25,463 nt of DNA from a virus. Below are positions 3,671 to 21,076 of this stretch, piece by piece. The first letter of the stretch is position 1; the number at the start of each line of letters is the position of its first letter. The notes under the pieces were generated by a model. It was given only the letters and a program-made list of their open reading frames with translations. It was not told where the DNA came from and searched no databases. The position numbers were made by a program, and so were the translations under genes. The stretch is from the IMG/VR virus record IMGVR_UViG_3300025508_000134, positions 1-25,463 of that record; one strand, given 5' to 3'.

Positions 3671-4510
3671 ATGATAGTTTTAAATATAGCGATTTATAAA
3701 AGATACAAGTTAACTAAAATAGTTTTAGATTATTATAGATACTTGATGACTAAGTATGATTTACAGATAGTTGTAGCAGGTTCAGAGGGTAATATAAGTG
3801 AAGATATAGCAAAAGGGTTGCATTACATTGAAGTTGAAAACGAACCCCTTACAATGAAGTATAATTCAATGATGAAGTATAGTAAGAAATTAAATCCTGA
3901 TGCAGTTGTTTTGTTAGGTTCTGATGATATTATTTGTGAAAATATAGTTAAATTCTATATTGAGTTAGTTAAGAATAAAGAAAGTAATGTAGTTGGTTTT
4001 AATGATTTGTATTTTTACTTATCTGAATACGGTACTTTGCACCATTATAAAAGTCCTTACCAACATTTCGGAGCAGGTAGGTTCTATCCTAAAAGCGTTT
4101 TAGAGCTAACTAACTACAATGGATGGGAGTATCATAAAAACAAAGGGTGTGATGCAGAAAATCAAAGATATTTAGAAAGTTTCAAGGTTAAATTTAGAAG
4201 TATTTATTTAAGTGAGATAGATGGTTTTTTGGTTGATGTGAAAAGTAATTTTAATATAACGAGCAAAAACTTTATATTTGATTTAATAAATGTTAAAATT
4301 GATATAATGGAAAAGAAAGTAAGAAAAAGAACGGTTAAGAAAGTTGTTGAATTAGACGAAGTAAAAAAGGAATTACCTATTAAGCAAAATGACGGCTTTG
4401 TAATGGTTAAAATTACTAATCACCCGTATTTAGTTGAGGGAACAACTTACAAAATGGAGCAGGATAATGCGGATAAGATAGTAGCTAGAAAACAGGGCGT
4501 TATATGTTAA
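3671..4510 (+). CDS. glycosyltransferase (GT-A/GT2-like) with a C-terminal extension
   Basis: A 279-residue protein whose first 210 or so residues look like a GT-A nucleotide-sugar transferase. The N-terminal strand-helix (LNIAIYKRYKLTKIVLDYY) fits the GT2 start. NSMMKYSKKLNPDAVVLLGSDD at 65-86 matches the 'N-a---a---D-vv-lgsDD' metal/nucleotide-binding pattern, with SDD at 84-86 as the DxD-like motif. The last 45 residues (FVMVKITNHPYLVEGTTYKM and following) resemble the small beta domain that often ends or follows phage capsid-region genes ('G-tY-l----A--Lv--g-a'). The link between them is Lys/Arg/Val-rich. Position between capsid and connector genes suggests it glycosylates a virion protein or host surface sugar, but that is inference. 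Its stop overlaps the next start. Confidence 0.7.
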   Translation: MIVLNIAIYKRYKLTKIVLDYYRYLMTKYDLQIVVAGSEGNISEDIAKGLHYIEVENEPLTMKYNSMMKYSKKLNPDAVVLLGSDDIICENIVKFYIELVKNKESNVVGFNDLYFYLSEYGTLHHYKSPYQHFGAGRFYPKSVLELTNYNGWEYHKNKGCDAENQRYLESFKVKFRSIYLSEIDGFLVDVKSNFNITSKNFIFDLINVKIDIMEKKVRKRTVKKVVELDEVKKELPIKQNDGFVMVKITNHPYLVEGTTYKMEQDNADKIVARKQGVIC

Positions 4511-5289
4511 AATTAAGGGTTAATAATGATAAAAGATACGTGTTTAACAGCTTCTTTGATGTTACTTTGAACCAATTAAAAGAACCTCTAAAATGGTTAT
4601 CAAAGCAGGATAAGGAGTTGTTAAATACTATTTTTCAAGAAGAACCAGAGTTAAACGAAAAAACTATTGATGTAATGATTACATGGATAATGTTTTTTAG
4701 CGATTTTAAAAGGGTTGAGCTTGAAAATATTAGCGTAACTGATGAAACTGATTTAAGCCTAACAACTTTATTTTCTCATTGTGCTTTGTTTATGGCAGAA
4801 GCTCCGCATATTTTTGATGTAGATAAGTTTAAACATAAAGGGGTTGAATATAAACTTCTAGAGCCGTTAAAAACAATAGACGGTACAAAGGTTCTACTAG
4901 GTAATGCCTCTTATAAACAATTTATGTTATCAACTAAAATAGATAATTTAATTAAAAAAGGGTTATCTGATAGTTACATAGACGGATTAATTCAATGTTT
5001 AGCGTTATTTTATACTGATGGTGACGATAGTAACGAGGGAATAAATAAAAGAGTTGAGGAGTTTGGAGAGATACAAGCAATATACGGATATAATGCATGG
5101 TTTTTTTTTGTAGTGGTTATAAACAAATACAACGATTTTTTCCAATCTTGTTTAACTCGAAAAATGACCAAGCTACAAGCAAAGGCACTATTAAAAGAAA
5201 GGATATTAAAACTTTGCTCGAAAATAACTATTGGGAAGTTGTCCGCAACGAGATTGCAAAAGATGGAGTATTTAATACTATCAACTTAA
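4504..5289 (+). CDS. connector-region protein, upstream frame of a split gene
   Basis: A 261-residue frame starting with an overlap onto the glycosyltransferase stop. Residues 1-213 look like a normal alpha-helical protein. From there the frame loses protein-like character (run of KLQAKALLKERILKLCSKI) and ends inside the region where the -1 frame is clearly coding. The -1 frame continues to 5375 and carries a W-x-V-V...LLEVLQFF ending of the sort seen in tail/connector proteins of Bacteroidetes phages. A -1 slip at T TTT TTC (5136-5142) would give one 290-residue protein. Two-product genes made by -1 slippage are typical of tail-assembly chaperones, but this gene is 4.5 kb before the tape measure, so that role is speculative. 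A missing T in the T9 run at 5101-5109 would explain it equally. Confidence 0.65.
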   Translation: MLKLRVNNDKRYVFNSFFDVTLNQLKEPLKWLSKQDKELLNTIFQEEPELNEKTIDVMITWIMFFSDFKRVELENISVTDETDLSLTTLFSHCALFMAEAPHIFDVDKFKHKGVEYKLLEPLKTIDGTKVLLGNASYKQFMLSTKIDNLIKKGLSDSYIDGLIQCLALFYTDGDDSNEGINKRVEEFGEIQAIYGYNAWFFFVVVINKYNDFFQSCLTRKMTKLQAKALLKERILKLCSKITIGKLSATRLQKMEYLILST

Positions 5290-5873: not shown

Positions 5874-6357
5874 TAAGCGTTTAAATATAATAGGGGCGTT
5901 TATAACAGACCAAATAAAAGCAGAATTAAAAGCACAAGGTCACGTAAATACTGGAGAGCTTTATAACTCTATAAAACACGAGGTTAAGCAAACATCAACA
6001 GGTTACGAATTAAATATTTACGCTAACGATTACGCTAAATATATGGAAAATGGATTTGGCAAAGGAAAGTGGGTTAGTGTTTATGCTTTAGCCGAATGGG
6101 TTGAACAAAAAGGAATAGCAACTGGCGAAAAGGAAATAAAGAGTGTAGCTTTTGCAATCCGTAGAGCAATTTATAACGAGGGGTCACCAACTAAGGGAGC
6201 TTTTGCTTTTTCGTCTAATGGCAGACGTAAAGACTTTGTAAGTTATACAATGGAGGTAATTAATAAAGATATTGAAGAGAGATTATTTGATATATTTACA
6301 GACGATTTCACAACTAAATTAAGTAATTTTATTACATACGCAAACAATCAAGAATAA
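5866..6357 (+). CDS. HK97 gp10-like tail-completion (neck) protein
   Basis: The 163-residue product shows the two hallmarks of the HK97 gp10 family: VNTGELYNSI (TGEL at 29-32), matching the 'tG-LrnSi' motif after the first helix, and NDYAKYMENGFGKGKW (about 54-69), matching 'Y----E-Gt'. Members sit at the head-tail joint and complete the tail end. It overlaps its upstream neighbour and ends in TAATG shared with the following start, so translation is probably coupled through the module. Confidence 0.75.
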   Translation: MYDKRLNIIGAFITDQIKAELKAQGHVNTGELYNSIKHEVKQTSTGYELNIYANDYAKYMENGFGKGKWVSVYALAEWVEQKGIATGEKEIKSVAFAIRRAIYNEGSPTKGAFAFSSNGRRKDFVSYTMEVINKDIEERLFDIFTDDFTTKLSNFITYANNQE

Positions 6358-7493
6358 TGGCACTAACAAGGGAATTTTTAGGAATACCAAGTACAAACGA
6401 AAAGTATTTATTAAAAGCTACAACAGACAATGTAAATGTTACAAGTGTAATATTAACAATTAGTGTTGATGGTGTTAATGTGTTTAGTATTGAGCATTTG
6501 CCAGACATTGGAACAAGTGATGAATTTAGTTTTAATATATCTGAAATAATTAAGGAATATTACGAAACAGCTTTTTTTGATTTGTCACTTGACGAATTAA
6601 CAACGGAAAGTTTTAATACTAAAAGGATTGTAGCAGTTACTGAGGAGGTTGTTGGATTAGTTCCTGTTGGTGTTGGTTATAATGACAATATTTTTATAGA
6701 TAAATTCTATATTGAGTTATTAAAAGAAAGTAATTTCAACTTTACTACTTATAATGTTGGGGATTCTGGAAGCAGTACAAGAAAGTTTTTAAGCAACTCA
6801 CCAAGTCCACAAGAGTTAAAAGACGGACAAAGTTTATTTTTAGCTATTAAAGACTTTAGTATAGATGGCAGTAATTTAGCAAAGCAGGAGGTAATAGTTG
6901 AGCGTTATAATAGTTCAGATGTATTACTAAGCTCTATAACGGTTGATTTAACAGTTAAAGAGTTTACTCCGTCTTTTTTCAAAGGCTTTAATAATTATTT
7001 TAGAGTTGAAATGCCTACGGGTGTTAGTTACTTACTTGTTTACGTTAAAGATGTAGTAGGAGCAACCAAAAGAAGTGAGGTAAGAAGAATTAATTATAAT
7101 TGTAGTGAGGGTGTTAGAGTGCATTGGATTAATGAGTTTAACTGCCAGGATAGTTATACTTTTAAAGGTAGAATTGTAAAGGGTATTACAACTAATTCAA
7201 AGGCTTACCAAAAAGTTAGACCCGTTGCACCTAGTACGGTTGATGTTGGGAATTTGATTTATTCTAACGATATAGCGAACGAGTGGGAAATTTGGACAAA
7301 TACAATCAGTCCAACGGATTTTGATTGGTTAAAGTCTATGTTTATAAGCAAACGAATAGCGTTAGAGATTGATGGTAATTATTACCCTATTATATTAAGC
7401 GAAAATGATTTTGTGTATAATGATGACTTTGATAGTTTAACTCAATTTAGTATTCCTTTTACCTTTGCTAATGTTAAAAATAATAGGATATAA
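6357..7493 (+). CDS. phage tail structural protein, function unassigned
   Basis: A 378-residue, beta-rich protein coupled on both sides by one-base TAATG overlaps (6357 and 7493). The early part has repeated strand patterns. Around residue 255, VHWINEFNCQDSYTFKGRI resembles the 'l-WlN--G--DsytF' signature I associate with tail proteins of Bacteroidetes phages. It is followed by a region ending in strand-rich sequence. With the next gene it forms a pair of tail proteins encoded before the tape measure. Roles such as distal tail protein or adhesion component are possible, but the sequence does not decide between them. Confidence 0.6.
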   Translation: MALTREFLGIPSTNEKYLLKATTDNVNVTSVILTISVDGVNVFSIEHLPDIGTSDEFSFNISEIIKEYYETAFFDLSLDELTTESFNTKRIVAVTEEVVGLVPVGVGYNDNIFIDKFYIELLKESNFNFTTYNVGDSGSSTRKFLSNSPSPQELKDGQSLFLAIKDFSIDGSNLAKQEVIVERYNSSDVLLSSITVDLTVKEFTPSFFKGFNNYFRVEMPTGVSYLLVYVKDVVGATKRSEVRRINYNCSEGVRVHWINEFNCQDSYTFKGRIVKGITTNSKAYQKVRPVAPSTVDVGNLIYSNDIANEWEIWTNTISPTDFDWLKSMFISKRIALEIDGNYYPIILSENDFVYNDDFDSLTQFSIPFTFANVKNNRI

Positions 7494-17710: not shown

Positions 17711-18104
17711 CAGGGTTAAACAAACGGATAAAGTAACTTTAGGCGAATTATATTTACACGATGACTGTAACAATTTACTATTCAAATGTAAGACGGTTGA
17801 ACGTGAATGGAACGACAATAAACGGTCAATTAGTTGTATTCCTAAAGGTTCTTACAAGGTTATTAAAACCTATTCACCACGATTTAAAAAAGACCTTTAT
17901 TTGGTTAAAGATGTTCCAAATCGTAGTGGTATTAGGTTTCACTCTGCTAATTATTCTTATCAGTTAAACGGTTGTATAGCATTGGGCAAAACCTTTGCAG
18001 ACATTAATCAAGATGGTGTTATTGATGTTACTAGCTCGGTTAATACTCATAAAGAGTTTGATAAGATACTAGAGGGTAAAGGATTTGATTTGGTTATTAA
18101 TTAA
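17694..18104 (+). CDS. DUF5675 family protein, possible cell-wall enzyme
   Basis: The ATG at 17694 is chosen over the in-frame TTG at 17685; both lie inside the preceding gene. The 136-residue product shows the DUF5675 pattern: CKTVEREWNDN near residue 32, PKGSYKVI at 50-57, and the conserved block PNRSGIRFHSANYSYQLNGC at 75-94 followed by GKTFAD. The conserved His83 and Cys94 are spaced somewhat like the H-x14-17-[ST]HGC motif of L,D-transpeptidases, so an activity on peptidoglycan is conceivable. Position at the end of the lysis cluster fits. The catalytic activity of the family is not established to my knowledge. Confidence 0.7.
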   Translation: MVVTINRVKQTDKVTLGELYLHDDCNNLLFKCKTVEREWNDNKRSISCIPKGSYKVIKTYSPRFKKDLYLVKDVPNRSGIRFHSANYSYQLNGCIALGKTFADINQDGVIDVTSSVNTHKEFDKILEGKGFDLVIN

Positions 18105-18264
18105 CTTTAGTAAATAATCCATCTATAAAGCCAGTTAAAGCACATAAATAGCAAAGGATATATAACTCGTAATCGTAATCATAACCTAAAATATAGGAAT
18201 AAATAAAAAATAATGTTACATAAATTACTATATTTTTTATTATTGCTTTTATGTATTTATTCAT
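18097..18264 (-). CDS. 55-residue membrane protein
   Basis: A complete minus-strand frame of 55 codons that converges on the DUF5675 gene, overlapping its 3' end by eight bases. Two hydrophobic helices are visible: IKNIVIYVTLFFIYSYIL, and LYILCYLCALTGFIDGLF after an acidic turn (GYDYDYE). Its start is preceded by AAAAAAGATAGATAATG, one copy of the recurrent initiation module of this gene cluster, and overlaps the upstream frame's stop by eight bases (ATGAATAA). No family is recognised. Confidence 0.65.
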   Translation of the reverse strand: MNKYIKAIIKNIVIYVTLFFIYSYILGYDYDYELYILCYLCALTGFIDGLFTKVN

Positions 18265-18412
18265 TATCTATCTTTTTTAAATTATTAATATCTTTCTTCA
18301 ACTCTTCTATGTCTTTTAAAATTAATTGTTGATTTCCAACTATGGTTGAAGCCGTTACCCCAATGAATATCAATAAGAGAGTGTATAAGAAAATCTGGTA
18401 TATTATTTCCAT
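18257..18412 (-). CDS. 51-residue membrane-anchored coiled-coil protein
   Basis: A complete minus-strand frame with an N-terminal membrane helix (YQIFLYTLLLIFIGVTAS) followed by a charged helix (ILKDIEELKKDINNLKKIDNE) that looks like a short coiled coil. A GGATAGATAATG initiation module precedes it, and its 3' end carries the module of the next gene inside its own coding sequence. The layout (one membrane helix plus coiled coil) resembles some small phage spanin-like or superinfection proteins, but the strand is opposite to the lysis genes. No family is recognised. Confidence 0.65.
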   Translation of the reverse strand: MEIIYQIFLYTLLLIFIGVTASTIVGNQQLILKDIEELKKDINNLKKIDNE

Positions 18413-18447
18413 TATCTATCCTTTTTAAATTATTAATTAAGTTTAAT

Positions 18448-18654
18448 TTACAAATATTCCTTAATTATCCTACGTGCTGATGCGTTACTGCATGAATTTC
18501 TTATCAAATCAATAACATCATTTTGAAGTAATTTGCTTTCTTTCATTTCATTAACTATTCTAATTATTTCCTCTAATTGCGAGTCTAATAAAGTTAAATC
18601 GTGTTCATTACTTAGATGACTAAATAACTCATAATACATTTCGCTTGTTTTCAT
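18448..18654 (-). CDS. small acidic helical protein
   Basis: A 68-residue protein with almost wholly helical sequence (HLSNEHDLTLLDSQLEEII, VIDLIRNSCSNASARRIIKE). It begins at a copy of the recurrent initiation module (18652-18676). The gap of 35 bases to the next gene is the largest in this sub-cluster and is filled by another module copy. No family is recognised. By size and position it belongs to the early, host-interaction type of small phage genes. Confidence 0.7.
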   Translation of the reverse strand: MKTSEMYYELFSHLSNEHDLTLLDSQLEEIIRIVNEMKESKLLQNDVIDLIRNSCSNASARRIIKEYL

Positions 18655-18671
18655 TATCTATCCTTTTTAAA

Positions 18672-18872
18672 TTATTCAAAATAATTATCAGTATATTCAA
18701 ATCCTTTATCGTAATCATATTGTTCCGAACTTACATTTTCTCTAAAACTATCTAAAAAATCAATATTTGTTTGTTGTATTAAAACTATTAACTTTTTAGT
18801 TGCTTTTTCTTTATCAAGAAAACCAAACTTATCATGAGATTTTATTAATATATCTTTAATTTTTTCTTCCAT
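18672..18872 (-). CDS. small acidic protein
   Basis: A 66-residue protein. The N-terminal part is helical and mixed in charge (MEEKIKDILIKSHDKFGFLD), the middle hydrophobic-helical (KKLIVLIQQTNIDFLDSF), and the end very acidic and aromatic (YDYDKGFEYTDNYFE). Its start lies in the fourth junction module and its stop TAA lies in the third. The first 17 bases overlap the 55-residue gene upstream. No family is recognised. Confidence 0.7.
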   Translation of the reverse strand: MEEKIKDILIKSHDKFGFLDKEKATKKLIVLIQQTNIDFLDSFRENVSSEQYDYDKGFEYTDNYFE

Positions 18873-19023
18873 TCTCTATCCTTTTTAAATTATTATAATT
18901 ATTTACAACTGTTAAAAACTCAATTACTACGGGCAAATCTACTAAATCAATTTGGCTTAATAGATTATACCCTATTGTATTTCTGATTGTTTCGTGTTGT
19001 TCTATTGTGGCTATTGGGTTCAT
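18856..19023 (-). CDS. 55-residue protein of unknown function
   Basis: A complete minus-strand frame whose ATG overlaps the stop of the gene upstream (ATGA at 19020-19023), which fixes the start. The peptide begins MNPIATIEQHETIRNTIGYN and is followed by a hydrophobic helix (VDLPVVIEFLTVVNN) and a basic tail. It overlaps the next gene's start by 17 bases, so the junction module at 18870-18896 is inside its coding region. No family is recognised. Confidence 0.65.
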   Translation of the reverse strand: MNPIATIEQHETIRNTIGYNLLSQIDLVDLPVVIEFLTVVNNYNNLKRIENGRKN

Positions 19024-19292
19024 TTATCTTTAAATGTTTCTGCTAATTTTTCAGCTAATTCATTTTGATACTGTTTACATTCTTCTTTACTCAAACAACC
19101 ATCGACAAATAAACTTAAAGTTTCAAACCAATAAGATTTTCGGCTTTTAATTCTGTTTATTATCCTATTTTTATCAACCTGTTTCTTCAACTCATTATAT
19201 TTATTTGGGAAATCTTTATTAATATGCAATTCGCCCGTTTCAGCCAAATCCTCCCAAAGTTTCCAAAGCTCTTTTATTAGTTCTTTTTCCAT
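19020..19292 (-). CDS. small charged helical protein
   Basis: A 90-residue protein, Lys/Glu-rich and helical (KELIKELWKLWEDLAETGEL; KNRIINRIKSRKSYWFETL; ending KLAETFKDK), with two cysteines in the middle (GCLSKEECK). Two bases separate it from the gene upstream, and its stop overlaps the next start. No family is recognised. Confidence 0.7.
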   Translation of the reverse strand: MEKELIKELWKLWEDLAETGELHINKDFPNKYNELKKQVDKNRIINRIKSRKSYWFETLSLFVDGCLSKEECKQYQNELAEKLAETFKDK

Positions 19293-19294
19293 AT

Positions 19295-19555
19295 CTATTT
19301 TAATCCTAAAAAGCTAATTAGTTTATCCATTATTGTTTTATGCTCTCTATTACTTTGGCAATTAATTTCATTAGTAAACAATAAAACTTTATCTTCTGGA
19401 ACTAAAAAAGTAAAATACATATTGTTTTTTTCTTCTTTAATAGCTTTTATTATACATTCAAAATGCTTAATATATTTAATTAACTCAGTAATATTATGAT
19501 TAGTATTGCAAGGTATAACCATTTCAAAGTAATTTATTCCGTTTATTCTTTCCAT
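19295..19555 (-). CDS. small protein of unknown function
   Basis: An 86-residue protein with alternating strands and helices (YFEMVIPCNTNHNITELIKY; a helix HFECIIKAIKEEKNN; strands MYFTFLVPEDKVLLF). The beta-alpha-beta pattern would fit a small ferredoxin-like fold. It begins 12 bases after an attC-like hairpin (19567-19622) and is the first gene of the downstream half of the minus-strand cluster. No family is recognised. Confidence 0.7.
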   Translation of the reverse strand: MERINGINYFEMVIPCNTNHNITELIKYIKHFECIIKAIKEEKNNMYFTFLVPEDKVLLFTNEINCQSNREHKTIMDKLISFLGLK

Positions 19556-19566
19556 ATCTATTTAAT

Positions 19567-19622
19567 TTAATAACGATGTATAAAATGCAACTTCGCAGAC
19601 ATTTATACGGGCGTTATGCGTA
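19567..19622 (-). repeat. attC-like imperfect palindrome, element 1
   Basis: On the minus strand it runs from TACGCATAAC (19622-19613) to TCGTTATTAA (19576-19567). It folds as CGTTAT/ATAACG, then GTATAAA/TTTATAC with an unpaired A, then TGC/GCA around a loop. Conserved outer boxes with a variable palindromic interior and a length of 56 bases resemble integron attC sites, whose consensus ends are RYYYAAC and GTTRRRY; the boxes match only partly. The same two ten-base boxes recur exactly in element 2. Confidence 0.6.
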
Positions 19623-19633
19623 ACTATATTTTG

Positions 19634-19654
19634 CCACTAATTAGCGTTTAGTGG
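19634..19654. terminator. hairpin at the 3' end of the cysteine-rich gene
   Basis: CCACTAA (19634-19640) and TTAGTGG (19648-19654) form a perfect seven-pair stem with a seven-base loop. The stop codon of the minus-strand cysteine-rich gene (19641) lies inside it. On the plus strand it is followed by TATTTTTTA; on the minus strand there is no T tract, so termination of the minus-strand genes is doubtful. Confidence 0.4.
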
Positions 19655-20042
19655 TATTTTTTAGTTTTTCTTCTTCACACATTTTACACTCATTTTTACA
19701 TCTTCCTATTTCAGGATAATGTTTTTCATCATTACAATAAAATTGACTGTTCGGTTTTTCCGAATAGTTGTCATTTAAGTTAAATTCACAACCATTGCAA
19801 TTCACCATACTCTTATAATTATGACACCAATCATCATCAGTATCAGCATTAATTTTGCAATGTGAAGTGTTAATTACTTTTGCTTTCATTTTTCTAATTA
19901 ATTGCTTTGAAGCATCATGTAATCTTAAATACATGGCTTTTTGAATTGGGTCATTTTCATCCCAATCTAACGAATATAAATGATTGTTAAAACAATGAGT
20001 AACTACGTTATCTAAATAGTTTTTATAAGTCTTTTTGCTCAT
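19641..20042 (-). CDS. cysteine-rich protein, possibly metal-binding
   Basis: A 133-residue protein with nine cysteines. Seven are in the C-terminal half: DWC, VNCNGC, FYC, and GRCKNECKMC, each pair separated by two or three residues as in zinc-binding sites. The N-terminal half is basic and helical (KQLIRKMKAKVI). It is the last gene of the block bracketed by the two attC-like hairpins. Zinc binding is inferred from cysteine spacing only; no named family is recognised. Confidence 0.7.
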   Translation of the reverse strand: MSKKTYKNYLDNVVTHCFNNHLYSLDWDENDPIQKAMYLRLHDASKQLIRKMKAKVINTSHCKINADTDDDWCHNYKSMVNCNGCEFNLNDNYSEKPNSQFYCNDEKHYPEIGRCKNECKMCEEEKLKNTTKR

Positions 20043-20044
20043 AA

Positions 20045-20224
20045 TTATTTTACTTTTGAAATTATTTTTTTTGTTTTTAAAATAACATAATCCATCAACT
20101 CTTCCTTAGTAGAAAATTCAATTTCTAAATTACTCCATCTTGTTGGTGATATTTCAGATTTAATTCCTCCTATTAATTTGTAACAATTATGTCTTTTTTC
20201 TATTTTAAATTCAAAATCATTCAT
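20045..20224 (-). CDS. 59-residue basic protein
   Basis: A complete minus-strand frame filling the gap between two longer genes, ending two bases before the next start. The peptide is basic and strand-rich (FEFKIEKRHNCYKLIGGI, RWSNLEIEFSTKEEL), followed by a lysine-rich helix end (LKTKKIISKVK). Codon use matches the neighbours. No family is recognised. Confidence 0.65.
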   Translation of the reverse strand: MNDFEFKIEKRHNCYKLIGGIKSEISPTRWSNLEIEFSTKEELMDYVILKTKKIISKVK

Positions 20225-20238
20225 CTCTATTGCCGTTT

Positions 20239-20481
20239 TTATAGTTTGTTTAATTCTTGTTTAACTTCTCTCCAATACTCTAATTCTTTTATTTCTGCTT
20301 TCCCAAGTGTTTCAATCCCTTCAATTTTTACTATTGCATGAGTAATTTCAAAAACACTTATTAAAGAATTTTTAATCGCTATTGAAGTGCAAAGTAATTC
20401 GTTTCCACACTCCGTATCTTCATTCATCAAAACCATTCTAAATTGGCTTACTAAATCTTCTGCTTTTTTAATTGGTGTCAT
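20239..20481 (-). CDS. small conserved phage protein ('YWxxVKxEL' type)
   Basis: The ATG at 20481 is chosen, giving 80 residues; an earlier in-frame ATG at 20520 would lengthen it by 13 Lys-rich residues deep inside the upstream gene. The sequence starts TPIKKAEDLVSQFRMVL, has a central helix ELLCTSIAIKNSLISVFEI and ends LEYWREVKQELNKL. This layout ('kAkeLv-kf---------a-i-----i------YW-eVk-Ei-kL') is common in small proteins of Flavobacteriaceae phages. Their function is unknown. The gene at 20739 has a similar end. Confidence 0.7.
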   Translation of the reverse strand: MTPIKKAEDLVSQFRMVLMNEDTECGNELLCTSIAIKNSLISVFEITHAIVKIEGIETLGKAEIKELEYWREVKQELNKL

Positions 20482-20749
20482 AGTCTTTTTTTTTGTTAAT
20501 CCTATCTTCTTTCTTTTCAAAGTCTTCTGCTAATCCATCTTTATAGGTACTTAAAAACCTTGTAGCTTCATCCCATTTATCAACTGGAATAAATTGCTCA
20601 AAGCATTCTTTATAAGCATCTATTTTCGTTTCTAAATCTGAAAAGTAATGTACCATTAAATCAAAAATTTCATTTTGAATTAAATCATTACTTTTTTTGT
20701 TATCTGAATACTTTACCAATATTTTTCTTATTTCTTTTTTAACACTCAT
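20468..20749 (-). CDS. small acidic protein of unknown function
   Basis: A 93-residue helical protein (MSVKKEIRKILVKYSDNKKS, then a helical middle with CFEQFIPVDKWDEATRFLST) ending in a highly charged tail (EDFEKKEDRINKKKDYDTN). It overlaps its upstream neighbour by 11 bases and its downstream neighbour by 14. No family is recognised. Confidence 0.7.
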   Translation of the reverse strand: MSVKKEIRKILVKYSDNKKSNDLIQNEIFDLMVHYFSDLETKIDAYKECFEQFIPVDKWDEATRFLSTYKDGLAEDFEKKEDRINKKKDYDTN

Positions 20750-20993
20750 AATTTATAATTTCAATCATTACTTTTTCCCAATAATTAATTCTTTCCTGTT
20801 CCCAATTAACAACCTCTTTATGTTTTATTTGACTATCTATTTCTTTTATTATTTCATAAATAAGTATCTTAGCTACTTGTTTACATGAATATTCATCAAA
20901 TTCATCACCTATTAAAAAATGGGGATACAATAAATGTTCAATAATATATTCAGATTTTCTTTTAGCTGTTTCTGGTTTTAATATTTTATCCAT
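20739..20993 (-). CDS. small phage protein related to the 20239 gene
   Basis: An 84-residue protein and first gene of the minus-strand cluster. SCKQVAKILIYEIIKEI and ERINYWEKVMIEIINYEC reproduce the alanine-helix plus 'YWekV--EI' layout of the gene at 20239-20481, so the two look like diverged relatives. Its start is 18 bases from the inner edge of the attC-like hairpin at 21011-21076, which would lie in its 5' leader. Function unknown. Confidence 0.7.
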   Translation of the reverse strand: MDKILKPETAKRKSEYIIEHLLYPHFLIGDEFDEYSCKQVAKILIYEIIKEIDSQIKHKEVVNWEQERINYWEKVMIEIINYEC

Positions 20994-21010
20994 AATATTA
21001 TAATTTTAGC

Positions 21011-21076
21011 TACGCATAACACAGCATTAATAACAATTCCGCTACGCTACACAGTTATTACTGTATTCGTTATTAA
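21011..21076 (+). repeat. attC-like imperfect palindrome, element 2
   Basis: It runs from TACGCATAAC (21011-21020) to TCGTTATTAA (21067-21076), the same ten-base boxes as element 1 but on the opposite strand. ATAAC pairs with GTTAT, ACAG with CTGT, and TAATAAC (21028-21034) with GTTATTA (21054-21060), leaving bulges CAT and ATTC and a loop containing GCTACGC, which also occurs at 21009-21015. The interior differs from element 1, so the boxes are conserved and the stem is not. Confidence 0.6.

Follow-up and report, generated by a model that had tools for sequence, protein, structure and literature searches.

Could a block of phage genes flanked by two inverted, hairpin-like elements be a gene cassette of the sort found in integrons, the bacterial platforms that reshuffle such cassettes? 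The stretch of DNA that raises this question (hereafter, the window) is a viral contig of 25,463 bp that encodes portal, major head and tape-measure proteins, together with an Erf-type annealing protein and a protein similar to Mu Gam; flavobacteria are the probable hosts of the phage. The original prediction was that two attC-like elements, here called sites A and B, bracket a block of minus-strand genes in the manner of a mobile unit. Our analysis indicates that A and B are very probably attC-like recombination sites that fold as single strands, and that positions 19614-21069 probably form one mobile cassette of five genes. The relevant features are as follows (a vertical bar marks a break).

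19567..19622, minus strand: attC-like site A; the plus strand reads TTAATAAC, arms 19578-19584 and 19602-19608, GTTATGCGTA
19613..19622, plus strand: cassette end box; the minus strand reads TACGCATAAC
19614..21069, genes on the minus strand: putative cassette of 1456 bp, its likely ends (plus strand cut at G|TT on both sides) placed from the box layout and from AAC|G breaks in related contigs and isolates
19632..19656, plus strand: terminator-like hairpin and T-run, overlapping the gene 5 stop codon
19641..20042, minus strand: cassette gene 5, 133 aa, with a Cys-rich C-terminus common to contig L092
20045..20224, minus strand: cassette gene 4, 59 aa, no function assigned
20239..20520, minus strand: cassette gene 3, phrog_21441 (E 4e-6), listed start TTG
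20468..20749, minus strand: cassette gene 2, 93 aa, no function assigned
20739..20993, minus strand: cassette gene 1, 84 aa, weak phrog_21441 match (E 0.0095)
21011..21020, plus strand: cassette start box; the minus strand reads GTTATGCGTA, complementing the end box
21011..21076, plus strand: attC-like site B; TACGCATAAC, arms 21021-21024 plus 21028-21034 and 21054-21064, with a 3-nt bulge, GTTATTAA

All five ORFs of the minus-strand block between the sites were confirmed. For gene 3, an ATG near 20481 is a likelier start than the listed TTG; by eye, short ORFs similar to this gene (MTPKEKA...EVKxEL) occur in related cassettes of L100, L108 and L113. L092, L108, L111, L113 and L120 have the terminator-like module ahead of their end boxes as well; L104 has lost the box.

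Pattern searches agree with the claim that A and B have two exact 10-base boxes in common, in inverted order and around different interiors. Within the window, TACGCATAAC occurs exactly twice (19613-19622 minus, 21011-21020 plus), as does TCGTTATTAA (19567-19576 minus, 21067-21076 plus), and every further match to either has at least one mismatch. Read on the minus strand, site A runs TACGCATAAC, arms, GTTATTAA. A composite pattern (box, 26-50 nt, box) matches once per strand in the window, and its reversed control not at all. As for the predicted hairpins, arm pairing beats that of shuffled arms, but the single-strand fold energy is no better than that of shuffles (z −0.4 to −1.2, not significant). 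Energy alone is thus no proof of hairpins, and structure was judged by comparison. Site B forms 11 pairs, a score matched in 2 of 1000 arm shuffles; for site A, with 7 pairs, the figure is 14 of 1000. Among the collected sites, own arms score 8.6 versus 5.2 for mixed arms. AAC and GTT triplets bound 19/19 of these sites, A and B included; the sites were collected by this very feature, and independent support for A and B comes from the breakpoint data. Judged by arm pairing, the sites have the imperfect palindrome, variable arms, unpaired spacers and one-sided bulge of attC. GTTAGGC and GTTAGGT fit the box consensus RYYYAAC / GTTRRRY; against GTTRRRY, the R boxes of the window include GTTATGC, with one mismatch, and GTTATTA, a poor fit.

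Other searches for the sites yielded little. RNAalifold, run on a MAFFT alignment of the sites, recovered the outer box pairs only, and a covariance model from 13 sites contained zero base pairs, the aligner having lost the arm register; the pairing score was used instead. An Rfam search gave no match. An exact two-box scan of viral contigs returned chance matches only, judged by the absence of paired arms, the arms of site A had no match in viral contigs, and plasmid searches with B and with the L092 and L120 sites gave nothing convincing.

The start and end boxes of the window cassette, GTTATGCGTA and TACGCATAAC, are complementary, with 10/10 positions paired. The outer halves, TTAATAAC and GTTATTAA, are likewise complementary (8/8 paired), and joining the flanks produces one intact site. 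The former relationship follows if both boxes are parts of one cassette, and the latter if one older site was split by insertion, as is probable; both are what insertion of a cassette at the G|TT of one older site would produce. A different explanation is that the hairpins serve in regulation or processing at mRNA 5′ ends, with blocks swapped by homologous recombination at the repeats. Indeed, as had been noted, a start codon follows each element at a short distance: the one at 20993 is 17 nt downstream of B, and the one at 19555 is 11 nt downstream of A. Regulation, however, leaves the complementarity of start and end boxes unexplained, and we consider this explanation unlikely; A and B may still play a secondary role at mRNA 5′ ends. 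The block ends form a perfect 10-bp inverted repeat, and terminal complementarity reaches about 25-30 nt in Danklef and P12002L; this could also evoke a transposon or MITE-like unit bounded by short terminal inverted repeats. We find this barely credible: no transposase domain was found among the cassette genes and, as originally reported, no target-site duplication is seen in the sequence; moreover, the box sequence differs between units, which insert into sites resembling their own and can form arrays. The notion of inverted ends around a mobile unit survives with respect to mobility and the inverted boxes, but the ends are not those of a transposon.

Related contigs help to locate the joints. 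In seven other phage contigs, site B or the 3′ end of the cassette adjoins unrelated DNA; where the boundary is clear, similarity stops at AAC|G. L092, the one viral contig with a relative of the gene 5 protein (19641-20042), resembles the window at the nucleotide level only over 161 nt (gene 5 end through TACGCATAACG, end box included; 97.5%) and at site B (81%). A genome search with the gene 5 tail gave one chance match, to an alphaproteobacterium. Searching with the B loop, we found 63 nt of site B identical in L100, a contig otherwise unrelated, a nearly identical site in L104, and sites with other arms in L108 and further contigs. Identical or related versions of B are thus present in L100, L104, L113, L120, L092 and L108, in differing contexts. 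Six aligned contigs agree through TTACGCATAACG (TTATGCATAACG in L111), identity of the cassette 3′ module ending after AACG, and then enter six different arms; on the opposite side, similarity starts at ATAACG and runs through the hairpin into the leader of the next gene. This pattern implies that, in those contigs, arms and downstream gene move together, with AAC|G as the joint. Another unit, in L120, starts with GTTAGGTGTA and ends with TACACCTAAC, indicating that the box varies from unit to unit, yet the start and end of one unit match. Two further modules recur in these contigs. In L100, L104, L111 and L120, the start box is followed by a shared structured leader of ~75 nt (ATCAGGTCATCTCACAAGG...GAGTGCCTGAT) before the ATG of different genes; it has no Rfam match at the gathering threshold (L100, L104). 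Three arrays (L120 11676-11765, L108 and L104) end with a common terminal site and a GTTAAAAGCCGTTTTAATGGC terminator (GTTAGCAGCCG in L104), preceded by different genes.

Matching of start and end boxes is also seen in isolated phages: GTTGTATG and CATACAAC bound the gp38 cassette of P12002L, GTTACCTA and TAGGTAAC its gp54 cassette, and GTTACCTGTAGTAA and TTATTACAGGTAAC the methylase cassette of Danklef_1. For 33 isolate cassette candidates, own start and end boxes beat permuted ones (z 5.1; 1 of 50,000 permutations) when a restricted motif (AACG, [TC]GTT) was used, a value that is optimistic in that the motif was picked after seeing the sites and P12002L and P12002S share cassettes. Unrestricted scoring of box complementarity was marginal (z 2.1).

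Comparisons of near-identical isolates provide natural before-and-after pairs. P12002S has one methyltransferase unit more than P12002L (backbone 99.7% over 5 kb); the break is AAC|G, and the unit sits between the same ...GCAGGTAAC and the same downstream arms. P12024S carries a box-bounded methyltransferase unit absent from P12024L, which has another short box-bounded insert. Relative to Freya_10, the Polaribacter phages Freya_1, 2, 5, 8 and 9 have at least one unit removed, with every joint at AAC| and flanks 100% identical, and Freya_6 has a different cassette at the same place. Danklef_2, 3 and 4 are without exactly one 781-bp methylase unit of Danklef_1; the joint falls in TAAC, and the rest of the compared sequence contains 0 to 4 mismatches. 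Of Danklef_1-5 (L131, L154-L156, L132), two carry the methylase cassette and three lack it. (Elsewhere in Danklef_1, at 6286-6735, complementary arms GTATAACAAAA and TTTTGTTATAC flank a small gene, as if it lay in the loop of a site.) The outcome named beforehand as counting against an attC-like mobile unit, namely hairpins kept in relatives with the block never gained or lost, did not occur; box-bounded blocks are repeatedly gained and lost, which supports that reading. These data also bear on homologous exchange. Further leader and 3′ modules are common to some relatives, and some of the mosaicism is probably homologous; however, near-identical isolates have only AAC or TAAC in common at the joints, which always fall there, and this is much too short for homologous recombination. 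Presence and absence at the triplet are seen for the relatives, whereas no close relative of the window phage with an empty site (TTAATAAC-arms A-GTTATTAAC, uninterrupted) was found. Hence, while the relatives lend good support to attC-bounded cassettes, we infer from them that this very block moves in the same way.

The break position is within the AAC/GTT triplet, and the structural polarity of the sites is consistent, save at one array edge. Read in gene sense, the AAC-side spacer is longer than the GTT-side spacer in 19/19 sites, and all bulges are on the 3′ arm. Since the AAC|G joints lie upstream of the arms, this pattern implies that the genes run opposite to those of a canonical cassette. 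At the exceptional edge, Freya_2 versus Danklef_1, similarity breaks after the arms rather than before them, such that polarity is not uniform in every comparison.

Which recombinase might act on these sites? A PF00589 search found none in the window or in six other metagenomic contigs, all of which may be incomplete; the integrase gene that, together with attI, marks a complete integron was thus not found in them. Nor was a recombinase found in P12002L/S, P12024L/S or the related contigs searched. Freya_10 (L142), by contrast with these, encodes a compact tyrosine recombinase of 271 aa (4078-4962), and cassettes join at a constant joint, AAC|ACCCCTATAAC (AAC|ACCCC), 49 bp before its gene. The best models for this protein are XerA/XerC/D-like. 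It scores 96.5 bits against the IntI model TIGR02249, below the cutoff of 265, and its aligned blocks lie 50 residues apart versus 94 in IntI4 (~44 shorter), which places it outside IntI. Related recombinases (31-40% identity) are encoded by Ingeline_1 (L152; 3021-3995) and Leef_1 (L153; 2575-3500), those of Leef and Ingeline being preceded by AAC|GCCCCTATA and AAC|ACCCACATAAC, respectively. Similar constant joints, AAC|RCCC, precede the recombinase genes in three phage families, and in Freya and Leef these genes are also preceded by box-bounded cassettes. The Danklef recombinase gene is truncated in 5/5 isolates, yet cassettes differ between these isolates, implying either recent breakage or a recombinase supplied in trans.

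The affinity of the Freya recombinase, nearer XerA/XerC/D than IntI, raises the idea of an Xer/dif-type module akin to pdif, in which host Xer acts on inverted XerC/XerD-like half-sites around genes. CGCATAA and TTATTAAAT do resemble dif half-sites, and pdif modules, which are Xer-dependent, offer a similar layout of a gene block between inverted tyrosine-recombinase-like half-sites. Here, though, 36-46 nt that include paired arms separate the half-sites, in place of a 6-8 bp centre, the box sequences vary among cassettes (GTTACCTG, GTTGTATG, GTTAGGTG), and arrays have an attI-like end, all of which makes such a module very unlikely. Transposon, pdif module and pure 5′-UTR element were all set aside.

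We therefore return to attC-like sites and propose the following scheme. An older attC-like site of a CALIN (a cluster of attC sites without integrase) would take up a cassette at G|TT. The cassette would circularise, a folded site being built from its start and end boxes plus one arm pair, and a tyrosine recombinase supplied in trans would join this folded site to a like site at the AAC/GTT triplet. The compact Xer-like recombinase and the adjacent attI-like site probably do the joining in related flavophages. We lean, by a small degree, towards a broader view in which flavobacterial phages (Freya/Danklef, Leef, Ingeline) own an integron-like platform, consisting of a compact Xer-like, non-IntI recombinase, an attI-like AAC|RCCC site upstream of its gene and fast-turnover cassettes of inverted genes, with window-type phages carrying stray cassettes mobilised in trans.

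Arrays of attC sites in phages, that of P12002L included, have already been reported, on the basis of predictions and an E. coli assay in which a P12002L site recombines with attI1 via IntI1 (PMC9892861). Like integron cassettes and these phage CALIN (Qi et al. 2023, PMC9892861), the units described here have AAC...GTT boxes, imperfect arms, complementary boxes proper to each cassette and joints at the GTT triplet. A further common trait is the array of small genes, among which DNA methyltransferases are frequent; several arrays lack an integrase. P12002L is in both data sets. Unlike known cassettes, that of the window has five genes, oriented against the inferred canonical polarity, and relaxed R boxes; unlike the earlier report (PMC9892861), we document turnover between near-isogenic phages. 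The Freya recombinase resembles IntI with attI in that a constant site adjoins it where the array ends; in contrast to IntI, it has 271 aa, a score below the model cutoff and a shorter inter-block segment. As far as we could find, the near-isogenic turnover, the compact recombinase with its attI-like site, the gene polarity and the five-gene cassette are new, and the recombinase with its site could be the part that goes beyond known phage attC clusters. The paper on the Freya and Danklef isolates interprets the integrase as pointing to a temperate lifestyle, and its searched text makes no mention of cassettes or integrons (PMC8776804).

Gain and loss exactly at the sites in nearly identical isolated flavobacterial phages suggest that site-specific recombination is how these phages exchange accessory genes. 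In the Freya and Danklef isolates, genes for methylases and other accessory functions are gained and lost at a single triplet, and part of phage gene content would thus be built to vary, perhaps as a counter to host restriction. The recombinase, the site and the isolates can all be obtained for testing.

Finally, two other repeats lie nearby in the window. A leader, AATAATTTAAAAAGGATAGATAATG, is common to several minus-strand genes (18097-19320), and the flank of site A resembles it. At 17867-17938, there is a strong imperfect inverted repeat, AACCTAATACCACTACGATTT...AAATCGTGGTGAATAGGTT.
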